Source: an uncultured Lachnospiraceae bacterium (GTDB lineage Bacteria > Bacillota > Clostridia > Lachnospirales > Lachnospiraceae). From it: a stretch of DNA of 32,391 nt. The stretch covers positions 1 to 32,391 of the forward strand of contig CANRIG010000035.1 in NCBI GenBank assembly GCA_947630595.1, in the 5' to 3' direction. The translations under genes and the position numbers were made by a program. Positions 14,649-25,670 of the stretch are shown here, piece after piece. Under the pieces are notes generated by a model. That model saw nothing but the letters and a program-made list of their open reading frames with translations. It searched no databases and was not told the DNA's origin. Numbering within the stretch: position 1 is the stretch's first letter; the number at the start of each line of letters is the position of its first letter.

Positions 14649-15491
14649 TCATTCCTTCACACCGCCCAGGGCGACGCCCTCAACGATGAACTTGGACAGG
14701 CACAGGTAGATGATAATGATCGGCACAATGGCGATGGTGATCATCATATAGATTTTTCCCATGTCGAAATTCATGTAGTCCGCGCCGCGGAGGGTGGCGA
14801 TCATGATGGGAAGCGTCTGCTTGTTCTTCGACGTGATCACCAGGGCCGGAATGAAGTAGTTGTTCCAGGAACCGACGAAGGTGAAAATCGCCTGCACCGC
14901 AATCGCCGGCTTCATGATGGGAATGACGATGCGGTTGAATGTTCCATACTCGCCGGAGCCGTCAATCCGGGCCGCCTCCACCAGGTCCTTGGGCAGCGAA
15001 GACTGCATGTAGCTGTACATGAAGTAAAAGGTCGCCGGGGACGCGATGGACGGCAGAATCAGCGGAAGCAGAGAGTCGTCCATATGCATGTTGGTGATCA
15101 GGCGCAGGAAACCAAGCGCCGTCACCTGCGTGGGCATGACCAGGATGGCCATGATGAACGTGAACGCCAGTTTTTTCAGTTTGAAGTCATAGGCATAGAT
15201 GCCGTATGCCGTCAAAGCGGAAAAATAGGTCACGATCGCCGCGCAGCAGCCGGAAACGATCAGGCTGTTGATGATGCCCTTCACGATCGGGATCGCCGGG
15301 TCGTTCAGGACGTTGTGCAGGTTCGTCAGCAGGCTGGAACCCGGCAGGGCCGAAAATCCAAGCTGCAGCTGCGCGTGGGAACGCGTCGCGTTGATAATCA
15401 GTATGTAAAAGAAAAACAGACACAAAAACGAAAGAAAAATCAGTACGGCGTGCGCGATTATGGAGCGCACCTTCCCACTTTTATGCTTCAT
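14649..15491 (-). CDS. CUT1 sugar ABC transporter permease (MalG-like)
   Basis: A 280-residue permease with six hydrophobic segments. The first is about residues 13-32 (HAVLIFLSFLCLFFFYILII). The EAA loop facing the ATPase is DLVEAARIDGSGEYGTFNRI, the classic MalG pattern with EAA...G. The C-terminus (FIVEGVALGGVKE) is typical. The start codon shares a base with the stop of the MalF-like gene (TGATG), with AAAGGAGG upstream, so the two are translationally coupled. No ATPase gene is present in the operon, so the transporter probably borrows a shared MsmK/UgpC-type ATPase encoded elsewhere, which is common for such systems in Firmicutes. Given the neighbouring GH16 and GH94 enzymes, the substrate is probably a beta-gluco-oligosaccharide (inference). 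Confidence 0.93.
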   Translation of the reverse strand: MKHKSGKVRSIIAHAVLIFLSFLCLFFFYILIINATRSHAQLQLGFSALPGSSLLTNLHNVLNDPAIPIVKGIINSLIVSGCCAAIVTYFSALTAYGIYAYDFKLKKLAFTFIMAILVMPTQVTALGFLRLITNMHMDDSLLPLILPSIASPATFYFMYSYMQSSLPKDLVEAARIDGSGEYGTFNRIVIPIMKPAIAVQAIFTFVGSWNNYFIPALVITSKNKQTLPIMIATLRGADYMNFDMGKIYMMITIAIVPIIIIYLCLSKFIVEGVALGGVKE

Positions 15492-16447
15492 CAGGCCAGG
15501 CCTCCTTTCTTTGCCCGCTTCGCCCGCTTTGCCGCGGCCTTGGAACCGTCAGGATCGCTGTCCGTATTCATCTTGAACACGAAGAAGCACAGGACAGCGC
15601 TGATCACAAAGAGATACACGGACAGAGCGCCGGCCATACCGTAGTTCTTGGCCTGAAGGTGCTTGTTGAGGAACATGATCAGCGTCATGGTAGTGCGGTC
15701 CGGAGCGCCCTGGCCGTTGGTCAGGATCTGCGGCACATCGAACATCTGCAGGCCGCCGATGAGGGATGTGATCAGGGTGTAGGTCAGCAGGGGCCGGATC
15801 TGGGGAAGCGTGATCTTGAAGAACTTCTGCGACTGCGTGCAGCCGTCCAGCTCCGCCGCCTCAAAGACGGACGGGTTGATGCCCATGATGGCGGCCATCA
15901 GCATGATGGTGCTGTTGCCGAACCACATCAGGAAGTTCATCAGGGCCACCAGAGAGCGGGCTCCCAGCGTGGATTCCATGAAACGGATGGCCTCGCCCAC
16001 CACGCCCGTGCTGACAAGGATGTTGTTGACCGGGCCTGTGTTGGAAAACAGGGCGAAAAACAGCATGGCAAACGCGGACGCCATGATCAGGTTGGGCAGG
16101 TAGATGACTACCTTGAAGAACTGTTTTCCTCTTATTTTAAACCGCGCGTCCGTAAACCACGCGGCCAGCAGCAGCGCCACGCAGATCTGCGGTACAAAAC
16201 CCAGAATCCACATGACAAAGGTATTCCACGCGTACTTGGGCAGGTCAGCGGAAAGAAGCTCTTTGTAATTGCCGAGGCCGGCCCAGGTGGGCCCGACGAC
16301 CTTCAGGCCGGAGTAGAAATACGTATAAAAACTGTTCCGGATGGTGTCCACCAGCGGAATCAGCGAAAATATGGCATACGTCAGGAAGAAAGGCAGAATA
16401 AAAATATATCCCCATTTCGCATAGCTGACGCCTTTGTGTTTTTTCAC
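15491..16447 (-). CDS. CUT1 sugar ABC transporter permease (MalF-like)
   Basis: A 318-residue permease with about six membrane segments beginning at YIFILPFFLTYAIFSLIPLV. The EAA loop is present as SVFEAAELDGCTQSQKFFKI. The GTG at 16447 is chosen because AAAGGAGG lies 7 nt upstream; the ATG 18 bp earlier lies immediately before and partly within that ribosome binding site. The protein ends in an Arg/Lys/Ala-rich tail (KAAAKRAKRAKKGG). It lies between the binding protein gene (about 97 bp upstream) and the MalG-like gene (overlap). With MalG it forms the channel for the oligosaccharide captured by the binding protein. Confidence 0.92.
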   Translation of the reverse strand: MKKHKGVSYAKWGYIFILPFFLTYAIFSLIPLVDTIRNSFYTYFYSGLKVVGPTWAGLGNYKELLSADLPKYAWNTFVMWILGFVPQICVALLLAAWFTDARFKIRGKQFFKVVIYLPNLIMASAFAMLFFALFSNTGPVNNILVSTGVVGEAIRFMESTLGARSLVALMNFLMWFGNSTIMLMAAIMGINPSVFEAAELDGCTQSQKFFKITLPQIRPLLTYTLITSLIGGLQMFDVPQILTNGQGAPDRTTMTLIMFLNKHLQAKNYGMAGALSVYLFVISAVLCFFVFKMNTDSDPDGSKAAAKRAKRAKKGGLA

Positions 16448-16544
16448 GGGAAGTCCTCCTTTCATGGTGCTGATTCAGACGCTGCCAGGCCTTACCGGAG
16501 GCGGGGCGGCCGAAGCCGCCCCTGTGCAGCGCCTGTCCGTCCGC

Positions 16545-17900
16545 TTATTCCGGCCACTTCACAGTGCCCATCGCCAGCTCCGGATAACGCTCATGAATTG
16601 CGGTCTCAAAGTTTGCCTTGGCCGTGTCCAGATCGATAACGCCGTTGAAATAATCGCCGAACGCGTTCTGGAATTCCTCGGTGCACCCCTGATCGTACGG
16701 GGAAACGTTTGCAAGGCTGATGTTTGCAGCCGCCTCGGACAAAACGCCGATGTAGTTCTGACCGCTCAGCAGATCGATGCCGAAGTCCGGAGACTCCGCC
16801 AGCTCCTCCATCAGCGGCTGGTCGTTGCTCATCTCACCATTGTTCACGGCAAGATTGCGCAGGATGTCGGTATCCGCCGTCATCTTCAGCATGATGTCCT
16901 TGAGGTGCTCCGGGTTGTCCGTTCCGCGGCAGGCGATGAGCCAGGTGCCGCCCCAGTAGAAGCTCTGGGGAGACGGGCAGACCGCCCAGTCCTCAGCTGC
17001 GTCGGTATCCGTCACATTGGGCTTGATGCACACGTCCAGGCCCCATGCCGGAAGGAAGAAGCAGAACACCTTGGAGTCCGGACCCATGTCCTTGTTCCAC
17101 TCGTCGGTCCACTGGCCGCCCACCTTGTGGTTGATGCCGTTCTCGGTATCTTCCATGGAGCGATCCACCCAGTTCATCATATTCGGGTCCACTACAACGT
17201 CAAATCCGTCCACCCAGGGAGCGGAAACGTTGTTGGAGTATACACGGTAGGTATCGGCGCGTCCGGAATACATGTAGTAGCCGGCCTCTTTCATCTTGTC
17301 CGCGGTCTCATAGAACTTGTCCCAGTCGGCCACTGCAGCGCCCACGGTCTCGGGATCGTCGCTGCCCAGCACTTCTTTCGCGATGGAGCGGCGGTACACC
17401 AGCATGCCCGGCGTCGCCTGATAGCTGAGGCCCCGGATTTCGCCGTCCGCGGTGGTCACGGCCTCCTGCGTGTATTTGTACTGGTTGGCGATGTCGTCCG
17501 CGGTGATGCCCAGCTCAGAGATCGGCATAGCCACGTCCACGTCGGGATCGATGTATTTCAGCGCATAATCGGCTTCCACCAGGAAGAGGTCGATCTTCTC
17601 GTCCGCGCTGGCATCCGCCTGTTTGACCAGCGCCTCGTCCAGCTTCTGCTGATAAACGCCGTCCTGGTTGGGATTGATGATCCAGTGAACCTCTGTCCCG
17701 TCCTTTAAATAGGTAACGGACTTGTCCTTGGAAGTGCTGTCTACCTCGGGATAGTTGGCGTTGAACTTGTTCTGCCACTCATCGTTCCACACGTAGATGT
17801 TGATAACCTTCCCTTCTTCTTCCGCCTGAGCGACCATACCGCTTCCGAGACTGCCCAGAAGACCAAGGCACAGCGCAAGGCTTACCATTCTCTTTTTCAT
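16545..17900 (-). CDS. CUT1 sugar ABC transporter solute-binding protein (family 1)
   Basis: A 451-residue extracellular binding protein. The signal peptide is MKKRMVSLALCLGLLGSLGSG, ending MVAQA, with likely signal-peptidase-I cleavage before EEEG at about residue 27. The only early cysteine (residue 11, context LALC) does not fit a lipobox, which needs Gly, Ala or Ser just before the Cys. The mature part starts INIYVWNDEW, as is usual for family 1 sugar-binding proteins, and many Trp/Tyr residues are available for stacking on sugar rings. The ATG has GGAGGAA upstream. It heads the transporter operon, is divergent from the AraC-type regulator, and is preceded by the shared activator-type promoter described separately. 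Confidence 0.92.
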   Translation of the reverse strand: MKKRMVSLALCLGLLGSLGSGMVAQAEEEGKVINIYVWNDEWQNKFNANYPEVDSTSKDKSVTYLKDGTEVHWIINPNQDGVYQQKLDEALVKQADASADEKIDLFLVEADYALKYIDPDVDVAMPISELGITADDIANQYKYTQEAVTTADGEIRGLSYQATPGMLVYRRSIAKEVLGSDDPETVGAAVADWDKFYETADKMKEAGYYMYSGRADTYRVYSNNVSAPWVDGFDVVVDPNMMNWVDRSMEDTENGINHKVGGQWTDEWNKDMGPDSKVFCFFLPAWGLDVCIKPNVTDTDAAEDWAVCPSPQSFYWGGTWLIACRGTDNPEHLKDIMLKMTADTDILRNLAVNNGEMSNDQPLMEELAESPDFGIDLLSGQNYIGVLSEAAANISLANVSPYDQGCTEEFQNAFGDYFNGVIDLDTAKANFETAIHERYPELAMGTVKWPE

Positions 17901-17939: not shown

Positions 17940-17958
17940 TAACACCTCAGCCGTGTTA
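17940..17958. promoter_or_regulatory. Perfect 6-bp inverted repeat just downstream of the binding-protein promoter
   Basis: TAACAC (17940-17945), a 7-bp spacer, then GTGTTA (17953-17958). On the minus strand it lies directly after the -10 box at 17967-17972, so it overlaps the expected transcription start and early leader. It could be an operator or a small leader hairpin. It has no equivalent at the GH16 promoter, so it is not part of the shared element. Confidence 0.4.
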
Positions 17959-17966
17959 CTGCCTAT

Positions 17967-18027
17967 ATTGTATTTTTTTCGCGCGGGAACGTATACTAAT
18001 AATGAATAAAAAATGTTAGATTCATGC
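17967..18027 (-). promoter_or_regulatory. Activator-type promoter and operator of the sugar ABC operon (shared with the GH16 operon)
   Basis: Minus strand, upstream to downstream: GCATGAATCT (18018-18027), a T-rich tract, ATTCA (18003-18007), a poor -35 TATACG (17990-17995), a 17-bp spacer, and -10 TACAAT (17967-17972). TGAAT/ATTCA make a palindrome. The same elements with the same distances occur at 25220-25280. The weak -35 next to a conserved upstream site is typical of promoters needing an AraC-type activator, and the AraC-type gene is divergent from here. Confidence 0.75.
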
Positions 18028-18084: not shown

Positions 18085-18114
18085 TTGAAAAATTCCCCTG
18101 CAGCGTGCTATACT
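18085..18114 (+). promoter_or_regulatory. Promoter of the AraC-type regulator gene
   Basis: TTGAAA (18085-18090) and TATACT (18109-18114) with an 18-bp spacer, about 87 bp before the regulator's ATG. CCCTGCAG occurs on both sides of the -35 (at about 18069 and 18096), a possible small operator pair. The remainder of the region between the divergent genes (17901-18200) holds the binding-protein promoter and no gene. Confidence 0.6.
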
Positions 18115-18200
18115 TTTCCCGGAACATCTGAAACCAGTGTGTGAGGCAGCATGAATATAGGTGTATAAAAATACAATTACAATGCCAGGAGGATCCGTCT

Positions 18201-18983
18201 ATGGGAACAGAGAAAGACTGGAAACCGATCGAACCGGATCAGAATGAGGAGCTGACGCTCCACCGTGACCCCGGTGAAGAAATGATGTTTTACCGCGCTG
18301 TCGCCGCCGGACTCATCGACGCCGTCCAGGACAACTGCGCGCGCGGCGTTTTCAAGGACCCGAAAGGCGTCGGCCGTCTCTCCGACAACCCGGTCAACAA
18401 TCTGAAATATCATTTTGTCGTCACAGCCGCCATGATCACCCGCTTCTGCATCGAGGGCGGGATGCCCATGGAGGAGGCCTACGGGCTCAGCGACGCCTAC
18501 ATCCAGAAGATGGATCACTGCGCCAACATGGCGGAGATCGTGCTGCTCCACGACCAGATGGCGCTCGACTTCACCGGGCGGATGCGCACGCTGAAAAAAT
18601 ACGCGGCCACCTCCAGACAGGTATCGGACGCCATCGACTACATTTACGCCCACGTCCGGGAACGCATTACCGTCAACGATATTGCCGACGCCATCTGCAT
18701 CTCCCCTGCCTACCTCTCCCGCATTTTCAAGCAGGAAACCGGAATTTCCATCAGCGAGTACATCCGGCAGAGGAAAATTGACATGGCGAAAAATCTGCTG
18801 CGCTTCAGTGATTACGACCTCTCCTCGATCGCCTACATGCTGTCCTATTCCTCCCAGAGCCATTTCATCCAGCATTTCCGCAGCCAGACGGGAGTCACGC
18901 CCAAGGCGTACCGGGCCAGCAATTACATGTCAAACTGGGACGTCAACAAGGACACGGCGGACAAAGACGGGACAAAATCCTGA
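18201..18983 (+). CDS. AraC/YesN-type transcriptional regulator of the beta-glucan locus
   Basis: A 260-residue cytosolic regulator. Residues of about 25-130 form a helical N-terminal domain seen in YesN-like regulators (NPVNNLKYHFVVTAAMITRF, then EEAYGLSDAYIQKMD), probably involved in sensing or dimerisation. Residues of about 140-240 are the AraC DNA-binding domain, with two helix-turn-helix units at about 157-178 (ITVNDIADAICISPAYLSRI) and 206-228 (DLSSIAYMLSYSSQSHFIQH). The signature end GVTPKAYR is present. The ATG at 18201 is chosen over the earlier in-frame one at 18141 because AGGAGG lies 8 nt upstream and the first 20 residues of the longer form are not family-like. It is divergent from the sugar ABC operon and convergent with the GH94 operon, and is the obvious candidate to bind the shared operator. 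Confidence 0.9.
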   Translation: MGTEKDWKPIEPDQNEELTLHRDPGEEMMFYRAVAAGLIDAVQDNCARGVFKDPKGVGRLSDNPVNNLKYHFVVTAAMITRFCIEGGMPMEEAYGLSDAYIQKMDHCANMAEIVLLHDQMALDFTGRMRTLKKYAATSRQVSDAIDYIYAHVRERITVNDIADAICISPAYLSRIFKQETGISISEYIRQRKIDMAKNLLRFSDYDLSSIAYMLSYSSQSHFIQHFRSQTGVTPKAYRASNYMSNWDVNKDTADKDGTKS

Positions 18984-19021: not shown

Positions 19022-21427
19022 CTACATAACCAGCGTAATTTCCGTCACGTCCGTGAGCAGCTTCTCCGGCACGTAATTTCCCGCCATTTCTTTTCCGTTC
19101 ACCGTAAGCTTCCTGCAGCCTGATTCCCTGCCCTCCGGATTCCGGATTGTGATGTGCAGCGTTTTTCCGCGGAAGCTCCTGCGGATTTCCAGCGCTCCCC
19201 ACTCCTTCGGGATGGAGGGCGCGATTTTTATGCCGTAAGGGTCGGGGCGCATACCGAGTATACCCTCCACGCATCCCACCATAACCGTCGACGCCGTCCC
19301 GGTCAGCCAGTGCACGTGCGAGCGTCCCATGTGCGGGCTCGCGCTTCCCTCCGTGAACTGCCCGTAGCAGTAGGGCTCGATTCCCCGAATCTCCGCCATG
19401 CCGTTCTGCATCGAGGGAGCGTTTTCCTTAAAATAGGCGAACGCCCGGTCCCCATGCCCCAGCAGCGCCTCCGCCAGAATCAGCCAGCCCTGGGACTGGG
19501 AGAAAATGCCGGCGTTCTCCTTCGTCCCGGCGTTGTAGATCACCGCCAGCGCCCCGTCGAAGGCATGCGCGTGATACGGCGGGTCCATGAGCATCGCCCC
19601 GTACGCCGTGTTCAGGCGCCGATACACATTGTCCATCGCCAGACCTGCCTGGCGGTCGTCTGCCAGCCCGCTGATCACCGCCCAGCTCTGCGGATTCAGC
19701 CACAGGTCCGCCTCCGGCGCCGTGCGCGCGCCGATCGTTTCGCCCGCCTCGGTGAAGCCGCGGATGAAGCGGTCTTCGTCCCAGCAGAGCCTGTTCAGCC
19801 GTTTTCCCAGCGTCTCCTGCTCGCTCTGCAGCCAGGCTCCGTACGCCTCGTCCTTCTGATACGCGGCAAAGATCCGCAGGATGGAAAACGCATAGTAAAA
19901 CTGAAACGCCACGAAGGAAGATTCCCCGTTCGCGCCCAGCCGCAGGCAGTCGTTCCAGTCCGCGTGCAGCCCGGCCGGCATTCCGTGGGGACCCAGATGC
20001 TTCAGGGAAAAGTCCAGCGCCCGCTTCAGATGATCGTAAACGCTTCCCTCGTCCCGGTTCGCGTACGGAACCGTCTCGTCGAGAAAGGCCAGATCGCCCG
20101 TCTCCGCGATGTACTTGTACACCGTCGGGAACAGCCAGAGCGCGTCGTCCGCGCGGTAGGCCGGATGCCCGGTCTCCCGGACATAGGATTCGTCCTCCGG
20201 CGTGTCCTCATGGCCGGGATTATGCGTAAACTTCACCAGCGGCAGTCCGCCGCCGTGATTCACCTGCGCGGAGAGCATGAAGCGGATTTTCTCCCGCGCC
20301 TGCTCCGGGGCCAGATGGATGATTCCCTGAATGTCCTGCACCGTATCGCGGTAGCCATAGCCGTTGCGCAAACCGCAGTAAACAAAGGAAGCCGCCCGCG
20401 ACCAGGTAAAGGTAATAAAGCTGTTGTAGGCGTTCCAGGTGTTGATCATCGTGTCAAATTCCGGGCACGGCGTCTTGACCTGAAAACGGGAAAACTTCCG
20501 GTGCCAGTCCTCAGCCACCTCCGTCCATTCTTTCCGGCAGACGGTTTCCGCCGCTTCGTAGGCGTCCACGACGGCCGCTCCCTCCGCGGAAGATTTTTCT
20601 CCTAGCAAAAACGCGACCGTTTTCGCCTCGCCCGGCCTCAGGGAGACGACCGCCGACAGCGCTCCGCAGCTGTTCTCATTGTAATTGCCGGCATTGCCCA
20701 GATCGCCGCGCTCCACGCCGACAGGGTTTCCGTATCCGCGGTAGGCGCCGAGAAACTGCGCCCGGTCGCCGCACCAGGAGGAAACCGGCGCGCCGGCCAG
20801 CCCGAAAAAGCGCTCCGTGACCGTCTTTTCGTCCACCTCGCTGCCGGACGCATCCAGATTCCCGTGAATCTGCTGACGAATCCGGTTGCGGTCAAACAGC
20901 GTCCGCGTGATAAACTGCGAATACTGGAGGTTGACCTGGTCCTGTTCGTAGTTTCCGTTGCAGGTAAATTCGGCATAGCCCGTCAGCGTCAGCTCCCGCT
21001 GCTCCTGCGAGCGGTTTTCCACGGTGAGCGCCCACACCTCGTGCGTTTTCCCGAGCGGCACATAGTAGACCGCCTCGCTGCGGATGCCCCGGTATTCCGC
21101 CGCGATTTTCGTATAGCCGGTTCCGTGGCGGCACTCGCTTTTGTATTCCTGCAGATCTTTTCCGACCGGCTGCCAGGATGCGGACCAGTAATCCCCGGAG
21201 GCATTGTCGCGAAGATACAGGTAGCGCCCCGGCTGGTCAAACTGGTTGAACACATAGCGCAGGATGCGCCCGTTCGCCCCGGATTTTACAAAGCTGTAGC
21301 CGCCGGCGTTGTTGGAAATCAGCGCGCCGTACTCCGGCGAGCCGAGATAATTGGCCCAGGGCTTCGGTGTGTCCGGCCTTGTGATCACATATTCCCGGTT
21401 CTGGTCGTCAAAATATCCGTACTGCAT
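19022..21427 (-). CDS. GH94 phosphorylase, cellobiose/chitobiose phosphorylase-like
   Basis: An 801-residue intracellular phosphorylase that splits a beta-linked disaccharide with phosphate to a sugar-1-phosphate plus free sugar. The N-terminal beta-sandwich domain begins YFDDQNREYVITRP, as in cellobiose and diacetylchitobiose phosphorylases. The general-acid aspartate is D490 in HADWNDCL, the same number as in the characterised Cellvibrio gilvus enzyme. The C-terminal part has KENAGIFSQSQGW and WLTGTAS, typical of the family. The frame stays open for 39 residues upstream, but that part is Arg-rich and overlaps the next gene; the ATG at 21427 has AGGAG about 12 nt upstream, rather far. The sequence after WNDCL (RLGANGESSF) is nearer to chitobiose-type than to classic cellobiose-type enzymes, so specificity is open. 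Confidence 0.88.
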   Translation of the reverse strand: MQYGYFDDQNREYVITRPDTPKPWANYLGSPEYGALISNNAGGYSFVKSGANGRILRYVFNQFDQPGRYLYLRDNASGDYWSASWQPVGKDLQEYKSECRHGTGYTKIAAEYRGIRSEAVYYVPLGKTHEVWALTVENRSQEQRELTLTGYAEFTCNGNYEQDQVNLQYSQFITRTLFDRNRIRQQIHGNLDASGSEVDEKTVTERFFGLAGAPVSSWCGDRAQFLGAYRGYGNPVGVERGDLGNAGNYNENSCGALSAVVSLRPGEAKTVAFLLGEKSSAEGAAVVDAYEAAETVCRKEWTEVAEDWHRKFSRFQVKTPCPEFDTMINTWNAYNSFITFTWSRAASFVYCGLRNGYGYRDTVQDIQGIIHLAPEQAREKIRFMLSAQVNHGGGLPLVKFTHNPGHEDTPEDESYVRETGHPAYRADDALWLFPTVYKYIAETGDLAFLDETVPYANRDEGSVYDHLKRALDFSLKHLGPHGMPAGLHADWNDCLRLGANGESSFVAFQFYYAFSILRIFAAYQKDEAYGAWLQSEQETLGKRLNRLCWDEDRFIRGFTEAGETIGARTAPEADLWLNPQSWAVISGLADDRQAGLAMDNVYRRLNTAYGAMLMDPPYHAHAFDGALAVIYNAGTKENAGIFSQSQGWLILAEALLGHGDRAFAYFKENAPSMQNGMAEIRGIEPYCYGQFTEGSASPHMGRSHVHWLTGTASTVMVGCVEGILGMRPDPYGIKIAPSIPKEWGALEIRRSFRGKTLHITIRNPEGRESGCRKLTVNGKEMAGNYVPEKLLTDVTEITLVM

Positions 21428-21509
21428 AATAAATAGTAACTCCTCTCCTGCTGATTGATGTTTTTGCCGTCTGATCGGCGGGCGCTTCGGCCTGTGCCGG
21501 ACTGTCCGG

Positions 21510-24260
21510 TTACATAAGCTCCGCCGTAATTTCCAGTTTTCCATCCGGCAGGGAGAGAAGCTGCGCCCGGCGAAGCACCGCCCTGCCTTCCTTTATCTCC
21601 GGCTGCACCGGCGTCCGGGAACCCGCCTGCATGAGGCAGGTCTCCGCGATCCGGTACGCGCCGTAATCCCTGCCCGCCGGATTGCGGTAACGGATGACGA
21701 AATCTCTGCCCGCGAACGTCAGCTCCAGCCGGGCCTCCCCGTTTTCGTCAAACTGCTCCCGCACGAGCTTCGGCTGCAGAATCAGATCGCCGCCCTCGCC
21801 GCGCACGCCGAACGCTTCCGTGATCACGGTCAGCATGTACCAGCTTGCCGCGCCGGTCAGATAGCTGTACATGCCCCGCCCGTCCGCGTTGAAATACTCC
21901 GGGATGCCCGGATAAATCCGGCTGGTCTCAAAGTCCAGCGCCGCGTCCGCCAGCGTCTGCAGCGCGCGGCAGCCCTCCCGCGCAAAGCCCCTCTGATACA
22001 GGGCGCAGGCATACATGACCGTCATATGGGAAAACACCGCGCCGTTCTCTTTCTCGCCGTAGGCAAAGCCGAACATGCGCCCCATGTCAAATTTCAGCTC
22101 GTGGAAATCCGTATTCAGGCGGTAGCCCCCGGCTTCTCTCCGGTAAAGGTAACGGTCCGCGCTGCGGATGATCGCCTCCGTCTGCTCCCGGGTCGCAGTT
22201 TTGCTCATGACTGCAAAGACCTGACCGGTCAGCATCATGCGGACTCCCGTCTCGAAAAATCCCTCCACGCGTCTCTGATGGTTGTCATAGTAGCTGTTGA
22301 ACCAGCCTTCGCGCTTCCCGTCCTCCGTTTCTTTGCCGTCAATCCATTCCTGTCCGCGGATATGCGCCGTCAGCCAGTCCGCCTTGTTCCGCAGGTTTGC
22401 CGCCAGCGCCGGAAGCGGCACGGAGACGGTGCGCCCGCTGACGCTGTGCCGGCAACGCCGCGCGTACCGCTCCAGAACCTCGTTCTTTCGCCGCACATCC
22501 TCAAAGACCGCGCGGTCATCCTCCAGCAGCTCCTGAATCTCCCGCAGAAGATCCACGTTTTTATGCTTTCCTGTCTCCGCCAGGGCGTCGAGCAGCCCCG
22601 CCATCTCGCGGAGATTCCCCGCATAAGCGCAGGCAAAGGCTACGCTCTCCCCGTGTTCCGCCGCCATGTCCAGGGCGTCGTTCCAGTCCGCGCCCCGCAG
22701 CCGGCAGATGTTGTGCGCCCCGACTTCATAAAACGCGGCAAGCTGCTGAATCAGAAGATGCTCCAGAATGCTGCCCCGGTAAAGCTCCCCTTCCTCCGTT
22801 CTCTGGCAGTTTCCACAGGCATCGTTCCACTGTCCGTCGATCTCCGTTCCCCGCACCGCTTGCGGGTCCTTGAAATAGGGCGCTTTTTCATACAGAATCT
22901 CCGCATCCCCGGTCTGGTCTATGTACAGCTTTACCGTTTTAAACGGCCACATCGCATGATCCATCCACACGCGGGCGATTCCGTTGCGGTCCGCGATAAA
23001 GCTGCCGTCGCCCTCCCCGATGATGGTCGCGTTCGTCCCGTCCACGCGCACGCCGCCGAAGTTCGCCCGGATCATATCGCGCACCTTCCCCGGCTCCATG
23101 AGCAGCAGGGAAAGACAGTCCTGCCACAGATCCCGCCAGCCTCTGCCGCCCCGCCCGTAATCATGGTGCGGCAGAAAAGAACAGCCGTAGATTCTGCGCA
23201 GGAACGGCTGGAAACTGACCCAGCGCATCAGGCTGTCAAATCTGCAGTCCCCCGTGTGATAATGAACGTTCACCTTTTTCTGCCAGTATTCCCTCGTCTC
23301 ATCCAGAGCCCGCTGCACCTTTTCCGCCGTATCATAAGCGGAATACACGCGCGTCGTCTCCTCCGCATTCTCCGCGACGCCCAGCAAAATGATATACTCC
23401 GCGCTCTGCCCCGCCTGCAGCGTCACCTCCGGAAAGCGGATGCCGCCCATTGCCTCCCGGCCGTCAATCCGGGCGCCGGCAGAAACCTCCCGCGCGCTTT
23501 TTTCCGGGACGCCCGCTTTTATTTCGTAGATCGCGCGGGGATGCAGAAACGTGCCTCCCTCCCCGAGAAAGCGCTCCACGGTCGGGTAAAACGCTTCCGG
23601 GCATGTCCCGTCCCCCATCGTACCGAACACGTAATAAATCCGGTGGTTTTCCCTGTGTCCCTTTTCGTCAAAGGACATCGTCGGCTTCACCGCCACGCCG
23701 TGCTCCGTCGTATAGATGCGGTGCAGCATGGAGGTAACGTTCCGGTGGTCGCGGATGTTGTCCGCGCTCCGGCCGTAGATCGGAACCGCCGCTGCTCCCG
23801 TCACCGCCTGCGGCGCCTCGTCCGTGTTCGTGATCCGCACCCTCATGATCTCCACGTTCTCCCGCACCGGCACGAACGAGGTGATCTCCGCCCGAAGCCC
23901 GCAGCGTTTCGAGACGCGGCTGACCGTCTGCCACATCAGCCCCGCCCGAAGCTCGTTTTCATCCTGCCCGGCGGTAAACCGCGCCGCCTCCTGCTCAGCG
24001 GATGCGCCCGTCGCCGACCAGCAGCCGTGTTTTGTCACGCACCAGAAATTCCGGGTGCTGCGACTTGCGTGCAGATCTTCCGCACTGACCGGCTCCAGCA
24101 GAAACGACTCCTGATCCAGCTTGCAGTCGCCGCCCAGCCCGGGCGTGACGGCGCTGCGCAGCCCGCTCTCGTTCGCCAGCGGAAAATAGAGGCAGCTCAC
24201 TGCCTCCGGATTCTGCAGAGAAAAATCACCCTGCTCATTCAGAAATCTGATTTTATCCAT
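21510..24260 (-). CDS. GH94 phosphorylase, laminaribiose phosphorylase-like
   Basis: A 916-residue GH94 enzyme, about 110 residues longer than cellobiose phosphorylases, matching the size of known laminaribiose (beta-1,3-diglucose) phosphorylases (about 910). The catalytic aspartate is D525 in RGADWNDALDM, followed by GESVAF. A conserved sugar-binding segment is GGRGWRDLWQD. No signal peptide is present, so it works in the cytoplasm, releasing glucose-1-phosphate. It lies 77 bp after the GH16 gene and 82 bp before the other GH94, all on one strand, so they form one operon. A beta-1,3-specific assignment is inferred from length and from the GH16 neighbour; another beta-glucoside specificity is possible. 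The ATG has a G-rich ribosome binding site. Confidence 0.85.
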   Translation of the reverse strand: MDKIRFLNEQGDFSLQNPEAVSCLYFPLANESGLRSAVTPGLGGDCKLDQESFLLEPVSAEDLHASRSTRNFWCVTKHGCWSATGASAEQEAARFTAGQDENELRAGLMWQTVSRVSKRCGLRAEITSFVPVRENVEIMRVRITNTDEAPQAVTGAAAVPIYGRSADNIRDHRNVTSMLHRIYTTEHGVAVKPTMSFDEKGHRENHRIYYVFGTMGDGTCPEAFYPTVERFLGEGGTFLHPRAIYEIKAGVPEKSAREVSAGARIDGREAMGGIRFPEVTLQAGQSAEYIILLGVAENAEETTRVYSAYDTAEKVQRALDETREYWQKKVNVHYHTGDCRFDSLMRWVSFQPFLRRIYGCSFLPHHDYGRGGRGWRDLWQDCLSLLLMEPGKVRDMIRANFGGVRVDGTNATIIGEGDGSFIADRNGIARVWMDHAMWPFKTVKLYIDQTGDAEILYEKAPYFKDPQAVRGTEIDGQWNDACGNCQRTEEGELYRGSILEHLLIQQLAAFYEVGAHNICRLRGADWNDALDMAAEHGESVAFACAYAGNLREMAGLLDALAETGKHKNVDLLREIQELLEDDRAVFEDVRRKNEVLERYARRCRHSVSGRTVSVPLPALAANLRNKADWLTAHIRGQEWIDGKETEDGKREGWFNSYYDNHQRRVEGFFETGVRMMLTGQVFAVMSKTATREQTEAIIRSADRYLYRREAGGYRLNTDFHELKFDMGRMFGFAYGEKENGAVFSHMTVMYACALYQRGFAREGCRALQTLADAALDFETSRIYPGIPEYFNADGRGMYSYLTGAASWYMLTVITEAFGVRGEGGDLILQPKLVREQFDENGEARLELTFAGRDFVIRYRNPAGRDYGAYRIAETCLMQAGSRTPVQPEIKEGRAVLRRAQLLSLPDGKLEITAELM

Positions 24261-24337: not shown

Positions 24338-25144
24338 TCAGCGCAGGCCGGCGCGTTTCTGGTAAACCCGGACGTAATCCACCGCCAGCACCGCATCGGC
24401 AAAATCCGTCGTTTCGTCCGGGTAGCCAACCCAGCTTCCGCCCACCGCCAGATTCAGAATCAGATACATGTCATGGTCAAACGGCGCCGGATACGGGAGT
24501 CTTGTTCCGTCCTCCAGCACAGAAAACCACGCATCCTCCCCTGGAGAACCGCCGGAATTTCCAAGCTGGTAAAAAAGAATTCCGTCCACATACCAGCGCA
24601 GCAAGCCCGGTTCCCATTCCAGGGCAAAGTCATGATATGCCTCCGAAAAATCCCCGTCGGTCAGCGTTATTTTTCCCTGGCTCTGTTCGTGCGGAAGCCC
24701 GTAATGAATCGTTCCGTGATTGGTTCGGGTCCGGTCTCCCATGATTTCCATAATGTCGATTTCCCCGCAGGACGGCCATCCGCCATGCCGTTTTTCATCG
24801 GCCGCCATCAGCCAGAACGCCGGCAGAAACCCTTTCCCCTTCGGCACTCTGAGGCGCGCCTCAAACAGTCCGTATGTAAAATCGTGCCTGTGCTCGGTCG
24901 AAATCCGGCCGGAACGATAAGAAACCGTGCCGTCCGCATCCACGGATTTCACGGCGCGGATCAGCAGGCTGCTGTCCTTTAGACAAATCACCTGCTCCGA
25001 ATCCACATAGCGCTGCCATTCCTCATTGACCCATCCCGGGTCGTGCAGCTCCACGTTCCAGTCGCTGCGGTTTAACTCGTCCGCATCAAAATGATCCTCA
25101 AACACCAGCGCATAGCCGTCATAGTCAAGTCTGTTCTTTTTCAT
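24338..25144 (-). CDS. GH16 endo-beta-glucanase (laminarinase/lichenase-like), cytoplasmic
   Basis: A 268-residue single-domain GH16 enzyme. The catalytic motif is GEIDIMEIMG, with nucleophile E128, D130 and acid/base E133; the extra residue (E-x-D-x-x-E) is the beta-bulge form seen in laminarinases and other non-lichenase GH16 enzymes. Upstream, GFLPAFWLM, and downstream, FHDFALEWEP-like (YHDFALEWEPGLLRWYVDG) and FILNLAVGG-like blocks, complete the fold. There is no signal peptide, so it would trim imported beta-1,3 or mixed-linkage oligosaccharides inside the cell rather than attack polymer outside. It is the first gene of the operon with the two GH94 phosphorylases, downstream of the shared activator-type promoter at 25220-25280. 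Confidence 0.9.
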   Translation of the reverse strand: MKKNRLDYDGYALVFEDHFDADELNRSDWNVELHDPGWVNEEWQRYVDSEQVICLKDSSLLIRAVKSVDADGTVSYRSGRISTEHRHDFTYGLFEARLRVPKGKGFLPAFWLMAADEKRHGGWPSCGEIDIMEIMGDRTRTNHGTIHYGLPHEQSQGKITLTDGDFSEAYHDFALEWEPGLLRWYVDGILFYQLGNSGGSPGEDAWFSVLEDGTRLPYPAPFDHDMYLILNLAVGGSWVGYPDETTDFADAVLAVDYVRVYQKRAGLR

Positions 25145-25219: not shown

Positions 25220-25280
25220 ATTGTAAAGAGTTTCCGCGCCGTCATATACAAGATTGAATCAAAAAATATCAGATTCATGC
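25220..25280 (-). promoter_or_regulatory. Activator-type promoter and operator of the GH16-GH94-GH94 operon
   Basis: Minus strand: GCATGAATCT (25271-25280), T-rich tract, GATTCA (25255-25260), weak -35 TATATG (25243-25248), 17-bp spacer, -10 TACAAT (25220-25225). TGAATC/GATTCA form a perfect 6-bp palindrome with an 11-bp spacer. The layout matches the site at 17967-18027, including exactly 32 bp from the outer edge of GCATGAATCT to the -35. It lies about 76 bp upstream of the GH16 start. Confidence 0.75.
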
Positions 25281-25310
25281 GGTCTGCGGCTGCGCGCCGT
25301 CCGCTTTCTG

Positions 25311-25670
25311 CTACTCGTCTTTCATTCTCGGCTCAAAAATCCAGCTTGCCGCGTAAGACAGAATCAGCGCCGCGCTGATTCCGGCCGCGCTCGCTTTCAG
25401 CCCGCCCAGAAACAGGCCCAGAAAGCCCTGTTCATCGACCGCCTCCTTCACGCCTTTCCAGAGCGTGTTGCCGAAGCCGAGCAGCGGCACCGAAGCCCCC
25501 GCGCCCGCGAAATCGATCAGCGGCTGATAAATGCCGGCCGCGCCCAGCACGGCCCCGGAGCACACGAGAATCACCATCACCCGGCCCGGGAGCAGTTTTG
25601 TTTTTTCCAGTAAAATCTGAACCAGCGCGCAGATCAGGCCGCCAACCCAGAATGCATTTACGTAATCCAT
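25311..25670 (-). CDS. spoVAE: Stage V sporulation protein AE
   Basis: A 119-residue integral membrane protein with about three to four hydrophobic segments (FWVGGLICALVQILL; MVILVCSGAVLGAAGIY; GLFLGGLKASAAGISAALIL). It matches the conserved SpoVAE family in length and in the central motif of GAGASVPLLGFGNTLWKGV. SpoVA proteins form the channel that moves dipicolinic acid into the forespore and out at germination. The ATG has AAAGGA upstream. It follows spoVAD by 76 bp on the same strand, the usual order. Its presence shows the host is, or descends from, a spore former. Confidence 0.95.
   Translation of the reverse strand: MDYVNAFWVGGLICALVQILLEKTKLLPGRVMVILVCSGAVLGAAGIYQPLIDFAGAGASVPLLGFGNTLWKGVKEAVDEQGFLGLFLGGLKASAAGISAALILSYAASWIFEPRMKDE

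Follow-up and report, generated by a model that had tools for sequence, protein, structure and literature searches.

Gene content of the locus

The window, a stretch of 32,391 nucleotides from an uncultured Lachnospiraceae bacterium, contains a beta-glucan locus in which two operons on the minus strand lie on either side of a regulatory gene on the plus strand. The transporter operon encodes the SBP of an ABC transporter (positions 16545–17900) and two sugar permeases, permease 1 (15491–16465) and permease 2 (14649–15491), both with a BPD_transp_1 domain. No Pfam family was detected in the SBP at an E-value of 0.001, and its PDB match was a putative cellobiose-binding protein (8bfy, E 1.8e-8). 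The hydrolase operon encodes a GH16 beta-glucanase (24338–25144), which is kin to endo-1,3-beta-glucanases and laminarinases, and two GH94 enzymes. One is a relative of laminaribiose phosphorylase (21510–24260; 6ggy, 948 bits, E 5e-284), and the best solved relative of the second (19022–21544) is BpGH94MLG of Blautia producta (8BOU, 1317.6 bits), a structure identified from the available text of PMC10318527. As the match to 8BOU begins at residue 39, the true start of the second GH94 is probably internal to the reading frame. The PDB name of 8BOU, N,N'-diacetylchitobiose phosphorylase, is misleading, and in the available text of the depositing paper the enzyme is a beta-1,4-glucan oligosaccharide phosphorylase (PMC10318527). 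By inference, the locus would serve the import of mixed-linkage or laminari-oligosaccharides, with one GH94 phosphorolysing 1,4 bonds and the other laminaribiose.

The gene between the operons (18201–18983, plus strand; AGGAGG at 18187 and ATG at 18201) is divergent from the transporter genes and encodes an AraC-family regulator of 260 aa, as had been reported, which is predicted to bind both of the sites described below. Pfam identified HTH_18 (E 1.3e-23) and HTH_AraC (E 1.2e-21, in two stretches), corresponding to a C-terminal double helix-turn-helix, and solved chains of AraC, MarA and SoxS matched an alignment of 26 relatives of the regulator. The label YesN, which had also been attached to this gene, was not retained. 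Pfam showed the C-terminal helix-turn-helix only, and neither a receiver domain nor any other N-terminal Pfam domain was found in a 280-aa reading of the regulator. A response regulator of the YesN type was rejected on this ground, and the product is regarded as a stand-alone AraC protein.

Two operator-promoters in the window

Operator-promoter A (17967–18027, minus strand) lies upstream of the sugar ABC operon and operator-promoter B (25220–25280, minus strand) upstream of the GH16-GH94-GH94 operon. The order of elements given in the original prediction, namely GCATGAATCT, a T tract, TATACG or TATATG, 17 bp and TACAAT, is present on the minus strand at both (18027–17967 and 25280–25220), and in each case 32 bp separate the -35 box from the outer edge of GCATGAATCT.

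Site A consists of a distal half-site, CATGAATCTAACATT (18012–18026), that is conserved in relatives, a proximal region (17990–18006) that includes the -35 box TATACG (17990–17995), and the -10 box TACAAT (17967–17972), which is 17 bp from the -35. The distal half-site had a PWM score of 19.1, though it is itself among the 20 sites of that PWM. The second half-site of A is weak and ambiguous, the best downstream direct match in a PWM scan being found at +22 with a score of -15.8. At site B, which is outside the PWM's set, the distal half-site CATGAATCTGATATT (25265–25279) scored 24.6. The proximal half-site of B, ATTCAATCTTGTATATG (25243–25259), overlaps the -35 box TATATG (25243–25248), and a -10 box TACAAT was assigned from the sequence at 25220–25225. 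By eye, the two half-sites of B agree at 9 of 15 letters when offset by 20 bp, and TTCAATCTTGTATA is kept at +20 in site B, site A being ambiguous in this respect. The PWM's own best offset for site B was +15 (score -7.5), not +20, and most of the relatives have TGATATA at the proximal position.

Operator B starts 30 bp past the stop codon of a gene of the SpoVAC/SpoVAEB family in the same orientation (25280–25311), so that transcription of a sporulation operon may continue into the glucan operon.

The motif is not widespread in the host genome. A search of the 3.31-Mb genome with the exact pattern returned two matches, sites A and B, and a reversed control pattern returned none in the same genome. 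The core ATGAATCTGATAT alone, allowing up to two mismatches, had 119 matches (56 forward and 63 reverse); it is thus the full arrangement that is specific, and not the core. A model based on sequence only, R1, was trained on 18 SBP promoters of other genomes, which remained after 26 sites had been reduced to 20 distinct ones and the window and L044 sequences had been excluded. When 150 of the 944 first-look candidates in the genome were scored with R1, sites B (30.4 bits, E 7.9e-7) and A (30.1 bits, E 9.9e-7) ranked first and second, and the third, at E 1.46, was noise. Site B is the more independent and stronger confirmation, because the training promoters are orthologues of site A, whereas site B is found before another operon.

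Conservation in related loci

One scan of genome contigs recovered 28 loci with regulators 65–90% identical to that of the window, in records named Lachnospiraceae, Oscillospiraceae, Flintibacter, Oscillibacter and others. Where the contig reaches, the relatives share genes for the SBP, the permeases, the AraC regulator, two GH94 enzymes and GH16, the last not being present in L044. Their SBP promoters contain CATGAATCTGATATT, then TATATAC and then TATAAT, and their alignment has 18 invariant columns out of 78. The R1 site was found at the SBP promoter in 27 of the 28 relatives, so that the arrangement first noted in the window is conserved at orthologous loci. This number includes the 18 training loci and six near copies of these (L052, L057, L061, L066, L068 and L069), leaving L044, L058 and L062 as independent instances. 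In L049 no SBP gene adjoins the regulator, and the SBP-promoter site is missing. A further independent site, at most 73% identical to any training site, was found in L034, which is outside the 28.

A distant set was made up of 16 loci from family genomes with regulators 46–52% identical. At least one R1 match at E<0.001 was found in 13 of these, and the locus search gave none at this threshold in L113, L116 and L123. At E≤0.01 there were 19 matches, which were assigned by position to SBP operons (nine matches), GH94 operons (four), locations 0.6–0.9 kb upstream of GH16 (three) and the regulator's own promoter (one), with two (in L111 and L114) left without assignment. Gene order is different in L118–L122, where the SBP and GH94 operons neighbour each other in divergent orientation without the regulator gene in between; the sites are still found at the operons.

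Hydrolase operons were scanned in 20 loci. A candidate was found before the GH16 operon in 16 of them (before the phosphorylase operon in L044) and none in L047, L058, L059 or L067, the hydrolase side of L058 giving only a weak R1 match (E 0.088). Candidates scoring approximately 17–22 are not individually significant, because scores of about 20 also occur at unrelated positions of these loci.

A similar operator was seen before a third GH94 gene in L045 (14085, minus strand) and L067 (19869, minus strand), the products of which are 32% identical to the second GH94 of the window, and the regulon may be wider in these loci. For the third GH94 of L062, no such site was among the best four candidates of that locus. 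In L044, which is a 90% relative, there is no GH16 in the region examined (16190–16600), the contig ends 0.7 kb further on and the operator-promoter is directly before the laminaribiose phosphorylase gene. The upstream flank in L044 is unlike the SpoVA-gene flank of the window, and by eye the similarity begins at the operator. An AAA block 7–9 bp upstream of the core is conserved in the SBP promoters of the relatives, where position -8 is A in every one of the 20 distinct sites, and is absent from the hydrolase promoters of the window and L044.

A probable direct repeat overlapping the -35 box

Direct-repeat operators with copies about 20–21 bp apart are common, though not universal, in the AraC/XylS family. 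An offset scan of the core across 21 promoters peaked for a direct copy at +20, with a mean score of -7.6 compared to -28.1 (sd 2.2) for shuffles and -19.7 for the next-best direct offset. The second copy was clearer at the hydrolase-operon sites of the relatives, where identity at +20 was 54% over 17 sites, against 30% (sd 3) in 2000 shuffles. These 17 were 14 of the 16 hydrolase-operon candidates (the near copies L061 and L069 were removed), site B of the window and the sites before the third GH94 genes of L045 and L067.

As sites had been picked partly for a nearby TATA box, the peaks at +20 are partly built in, and bases that had not been selected for were therefore tested. TGA was found immediately 5′ of TATA in 13 of 15 hydrolase-operon sites (L053 was also left out, and L060 has no TATA in range), compared with a background of 70 of the 1432 TATA in the 28 loci. 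The two sites lacking it were site B of the window and the L044 site. All six sites with TGATAT in both copies had a spacing of exactly 20 bp. At the SBP promoters, where the second half-site is weak, TGA precedes TATA in one of 20, and TTTAA or TTTTG is found there in 12 of 20.

The conserved part is better read as CATGAATCTGATATT plus a second, degenerate copy in direct orientation some 20 bp downstream, at the position of what the original prediction called a poor -35. The letters TATACG and TATATG are present as described, and it is their reading that has been corrected. On the evidence of the TGA before TATA and of the 20-bp spacing, the box would best be taken as lying inside the proximal half-site in a direct repeat of the AraC type and appears to serve as second half-site as well. 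An activator site that overlaps or abuts a poor -35 constitutes the class II arrangement, and this feature is seen here, the proximal copy overlapping a poor -35 that is 17 bp from the -10.

The promoter of the regulator gene

The promoter predicted for the regulator itself, TTGAAA-N18-TATACT (18085–18114, plus strand), has no half-site in its spacer in the window (6 of 14 letters). Among the 28 relatives, a half-site copy (at least 12 of 14 letters) lies within the spacer between -35 and -10 in 16 loci, a count that includes near copies, and its distance to the -10 is constant. Nine loci, including L044, had 6–10 of 14 letters and three yielded no promoter by the rule used. The same rule detected a spacer copy in three of the 16 distant loci (L110, L112 and L115). 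The 13 distinct copies have no partner half-site at +20 (mean -20.3), and the high value found at -16 (mean -5.2) falls on the letters of the -10 box of that promoter.

A half-site between the -35 and -10 boxes is in a position that suits autorepression, and the presence of this copy in the regulator promoters of the relatives suggests that these genes are autorepressed. Autorepression would also fit the AraC gene of B. producta, which changed little on glucan according to the available text of PMC10318527. A dual use of the half-site can be proposed tentatively, as a possibility close to evenly balanced: paired in tandem with the copy at the -35 it would activate the operons for import and hydrolysis, and a lone copy in the spacer would repress the regulator. 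The spacer copy is found in some relatives and is missing in others, and hence offers a natural series for testing how autorepression tunes the sugar switch.

A DNA loop between the transporter site and the copy in the regulator promoter was also considered and, though possible, is without statistical support. The two are 42, 71, 74 or 84–87 bp apart in 12 loci, mostly 84–87, and the Rayleigh test gave p 0.17 for four distance classes and 0.065 for seven distinct distances. A weak copy 80 bp away in L015 and L109 was left out of this test, and its inclusion would weaken the case for looping further.

These observations bear on whether the AraC protein might bind the sites mainly as a repressor when inducer is absent, with the half-site at the -35 blocking polymerase. 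The overlap of the proximal half-site with the -35 is in keeping with such a role, as is the spacer copy, in a repressing position, in the 16 relatives. However, the -35 is poor and the best-conserved copy in the 20 distinct SBP promoters is upstream of it, an arrangement that suits activation, and we regard a mainly repressing role as unlikely.

The leader of the transporter mRNA

A small putative hairpin in the 5′ leader of the transporter mRNA, TAACAC-N7-GTGTTA (17940–17958, minus strand), is situated just past the -10 box and is found in the same place in relatives. Its letters change and the pairing is kept. In 20 leaders 77.5% of cells pair, and the covariation score from the named-structure count was 0.382, compared with 0.241 (sd 0.029) for shuffles. 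This count covered 20 of the 28 leaders, and folding was repeated with all 23 distinct leaders, which had a mean single-sequence folding energy of -8.7 versus -4.8 (sd 0.5). RNAalifold gave no consensus for the hairpin, and the stem is missing from the leaders of L056 and L070 and hardly present in that of L046. The hairpin is perhaps a stabiliser of the 5′ end of the mRNA.

Co-occurrence of the motif and the regulator

Of 47 congeneric genomes, three contained the motif (E≤0.001), and these are exactly the three with a regulator at least 72% identical. Eight further congeneric genomes, in which relatives of the regulator are at most 42% identical, had no motif. In 150 family genomes, the motif was found in 11 of the 18 with the regulator at E≤1e-70 and in one of the 132 without it; this cut was chosen after the list had been seen, and at 1e-50 the counts are 11 of 29 and 1 of 121, the 11 added genomes being without the motif. 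The single regulator-free genome with the motif is G018, where the match (E 8.3e-4) is probably due to chance. When the 23 genomes that encode laminaribiose phosphorylase were considered, the motif was present in nine of 15 with the regulator and in none of eight without a close regulator. The p values for these three comparisons, 6e-5, 2e-11 and 0.006, respectively, overstate independence because the genomes are related and the window's own genome was counted in every test. The counts assume the same 150 family genomes throughout (the listed handles agree), and stricter filters lose weak matches. When 25 phosphorylase loci were searched, matches were found in nine of the 16 from regulator genomes and in none of the nine from others. 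The presence of the motif follows the regulator rather than the phosphorylase.

In a sample of 291 genomes from the class, six besides the window's own encode regulators 43–47% identical; only 16 candidates were scored in each genome, and none of the six had the motif at E≤1e-4. The recognition sequence is accordingly not common to the wider subfamily but a property of a narrower clade.

The distribution also bears on the possibility that the motif belongs to some other regulator of these enzymes and that the AraC gene is incidental. Seven of the 18 regulator-bearing family genomes have no genome-wide match at E≤0.001, which could be taken to favour this, although four of the seven (G045, G076, G111 and G122) do match in the smaller locus search. 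Against it stand the empty count in the eight phosphorylase genomes without a close regulator, the difference between the two groups of phosphorylase loci, the agreement within the genus between the motif and a close regulator, and the copies at the regulator's own promoter, and we consider it distinctly improbable.

Inverted repeat and promoter duplication

The letters of the half-palindrome that was originally described, ATTCA or GATTCA, are present in both sites, and an inverted repeat TGAATC-N10/11-GATTCA could be taken as the functional unit. This repeat is found in both window sites and in L044, and by eye L034 has ATTCA downstream of the core at a shorter spacing. However, when up to one mismatch and 8–13 bp between the arms were allowed, the only promoters of this set that had it were those of the window and its 90% relative (L033/L044), and it was not found at those of the other relatives. 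The offset scan that peaked for the direct copy at +20 had no comparable inverted peak. The inverted repeat was rejected as a conserved operator, and that it is the functional unit is very improbable. A recent duplication of a promoter segment with no regulatory meaning is hardly credible: the two window sites do have more in common than is seen among the relatives, for example TACAAT and the ATTCA half, but they differ outside the boxes, the motif is kept at 46–52% regulator identity and in rearranged loci, and the R1 ranking of the genome contradicts it.

Proposed mode of regulation

The proposal that these sites are the operator of the neighbouring AraC regulator is supported by a motif that is rare, conserved at orthologous loci and co-occurs with the regulator, and the operator is now better read as a direct repeat. 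Both sites are very probably operators of the AraC-type protein encoded at 18201–18983. The switch is present in relatives that have the regulator, which indicates that it is real. On the sequence evidence, we consider it highly likely that the regulator binds the direct-repeat tandem, acts as an activator and couples expression of the importer and GH16/phosphorylase operons.

Under this activation model, the regulator is probably switched to its activating state by an imported oligosaccharide or by a compound derived from it. The regulator would bind a pair of half-sites in direct repeat, spaced about 20 bp apart, namely the distal CATGAATCTGATATT and a degenerate proximal copy over the weak -35, and once bound would help RNA polymerase to initiate at the TACAAT box, which follows after 17 bp. 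The shared operator would in this way couple the importer operon, made up of the SBP and two permeases, to the GH16/phosphorylase operon. The extra half-site in the regulator promoter of many relatives, which the window is without, probably limits the regulator's own synthesis. A sequence-defined operator and a putative two-operon regulon are thereby available for this beta-glucan locus type of gut Clostridia, and the motif and the R1 model can be used for finding further loci and predicting co-switched genes.

Comparison with known systems

AraC at araI1-I2 and RhaS are activators that use direct-repeat half-sites, and in the case of AraC the spacing is about 20 bp and the site overlaps the -35. 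XylS is likewise an AraC-family activator with direct-repeat half-sites (PMC9722767). The window operator is like those of AraC, RhaS and XylS in having two direct repeats, whereas its site sequence is unrelated and the N-terminal part of its regulator has no Pfam domain. CdhR of Pseudomonas aeruginosa is a divergently encoded AraC-family regulator with direct repeats, the half-sites of which were proposed to limit its own expression (PMC5806209). It resembles the window regulator in its divergent gene and direct repeats and differs in being class I and binding upstream, whereas the proximal half in the window overlaps the -35 (PMC5806209). XylRA, found in marine and gut bacteria, has a DNA-binding domain of the AraC type, and AT-rich direct repeats are found before several operons of its glycan locus (PMC12125979). 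Unlike the window system, it has a ligand domain of the LacI type and belongs to a xylan locus, described in Vibrio strains (PMC12125979). A direct-repeat motif with no factor assigned, which may be related to the present one, is also found before the cellobiose phosphorylase genes cbp-cbp2 of Caldicellulosiruptor bescii (PMC8579813).

No description of the operator reported here was found in a search of one open-licence library, including the available text of PMC10318527, PMC8579813, PMC9722767, PMC12125979 and PMC5806209. The closest locus by gene content is the mixed-linkage beta-glucan locus of B. producta, bp1313–bp1318, which contains GH16, GH94, AraC, SBP and transporter genes (PMC10318527). 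On barley glucan, its enzyme and transporter genes were up 3.9–5.2 fold and the AraC gene changed little (PMC10318527). The words 'promoter' and 'operon' do not appear in the main text of that paper. The window is like the B. producta locus in bringing together GH16, GH94, AraC and ABC transporter genes, and its second GH94 best matches BpGH94MLG; it is unlike it in having an extra laminaribiose phosphorylase and a small GH16. For a study based on sequence the regulatory assignment is strong; the kind of control that it implies is familiar, and the example is new.
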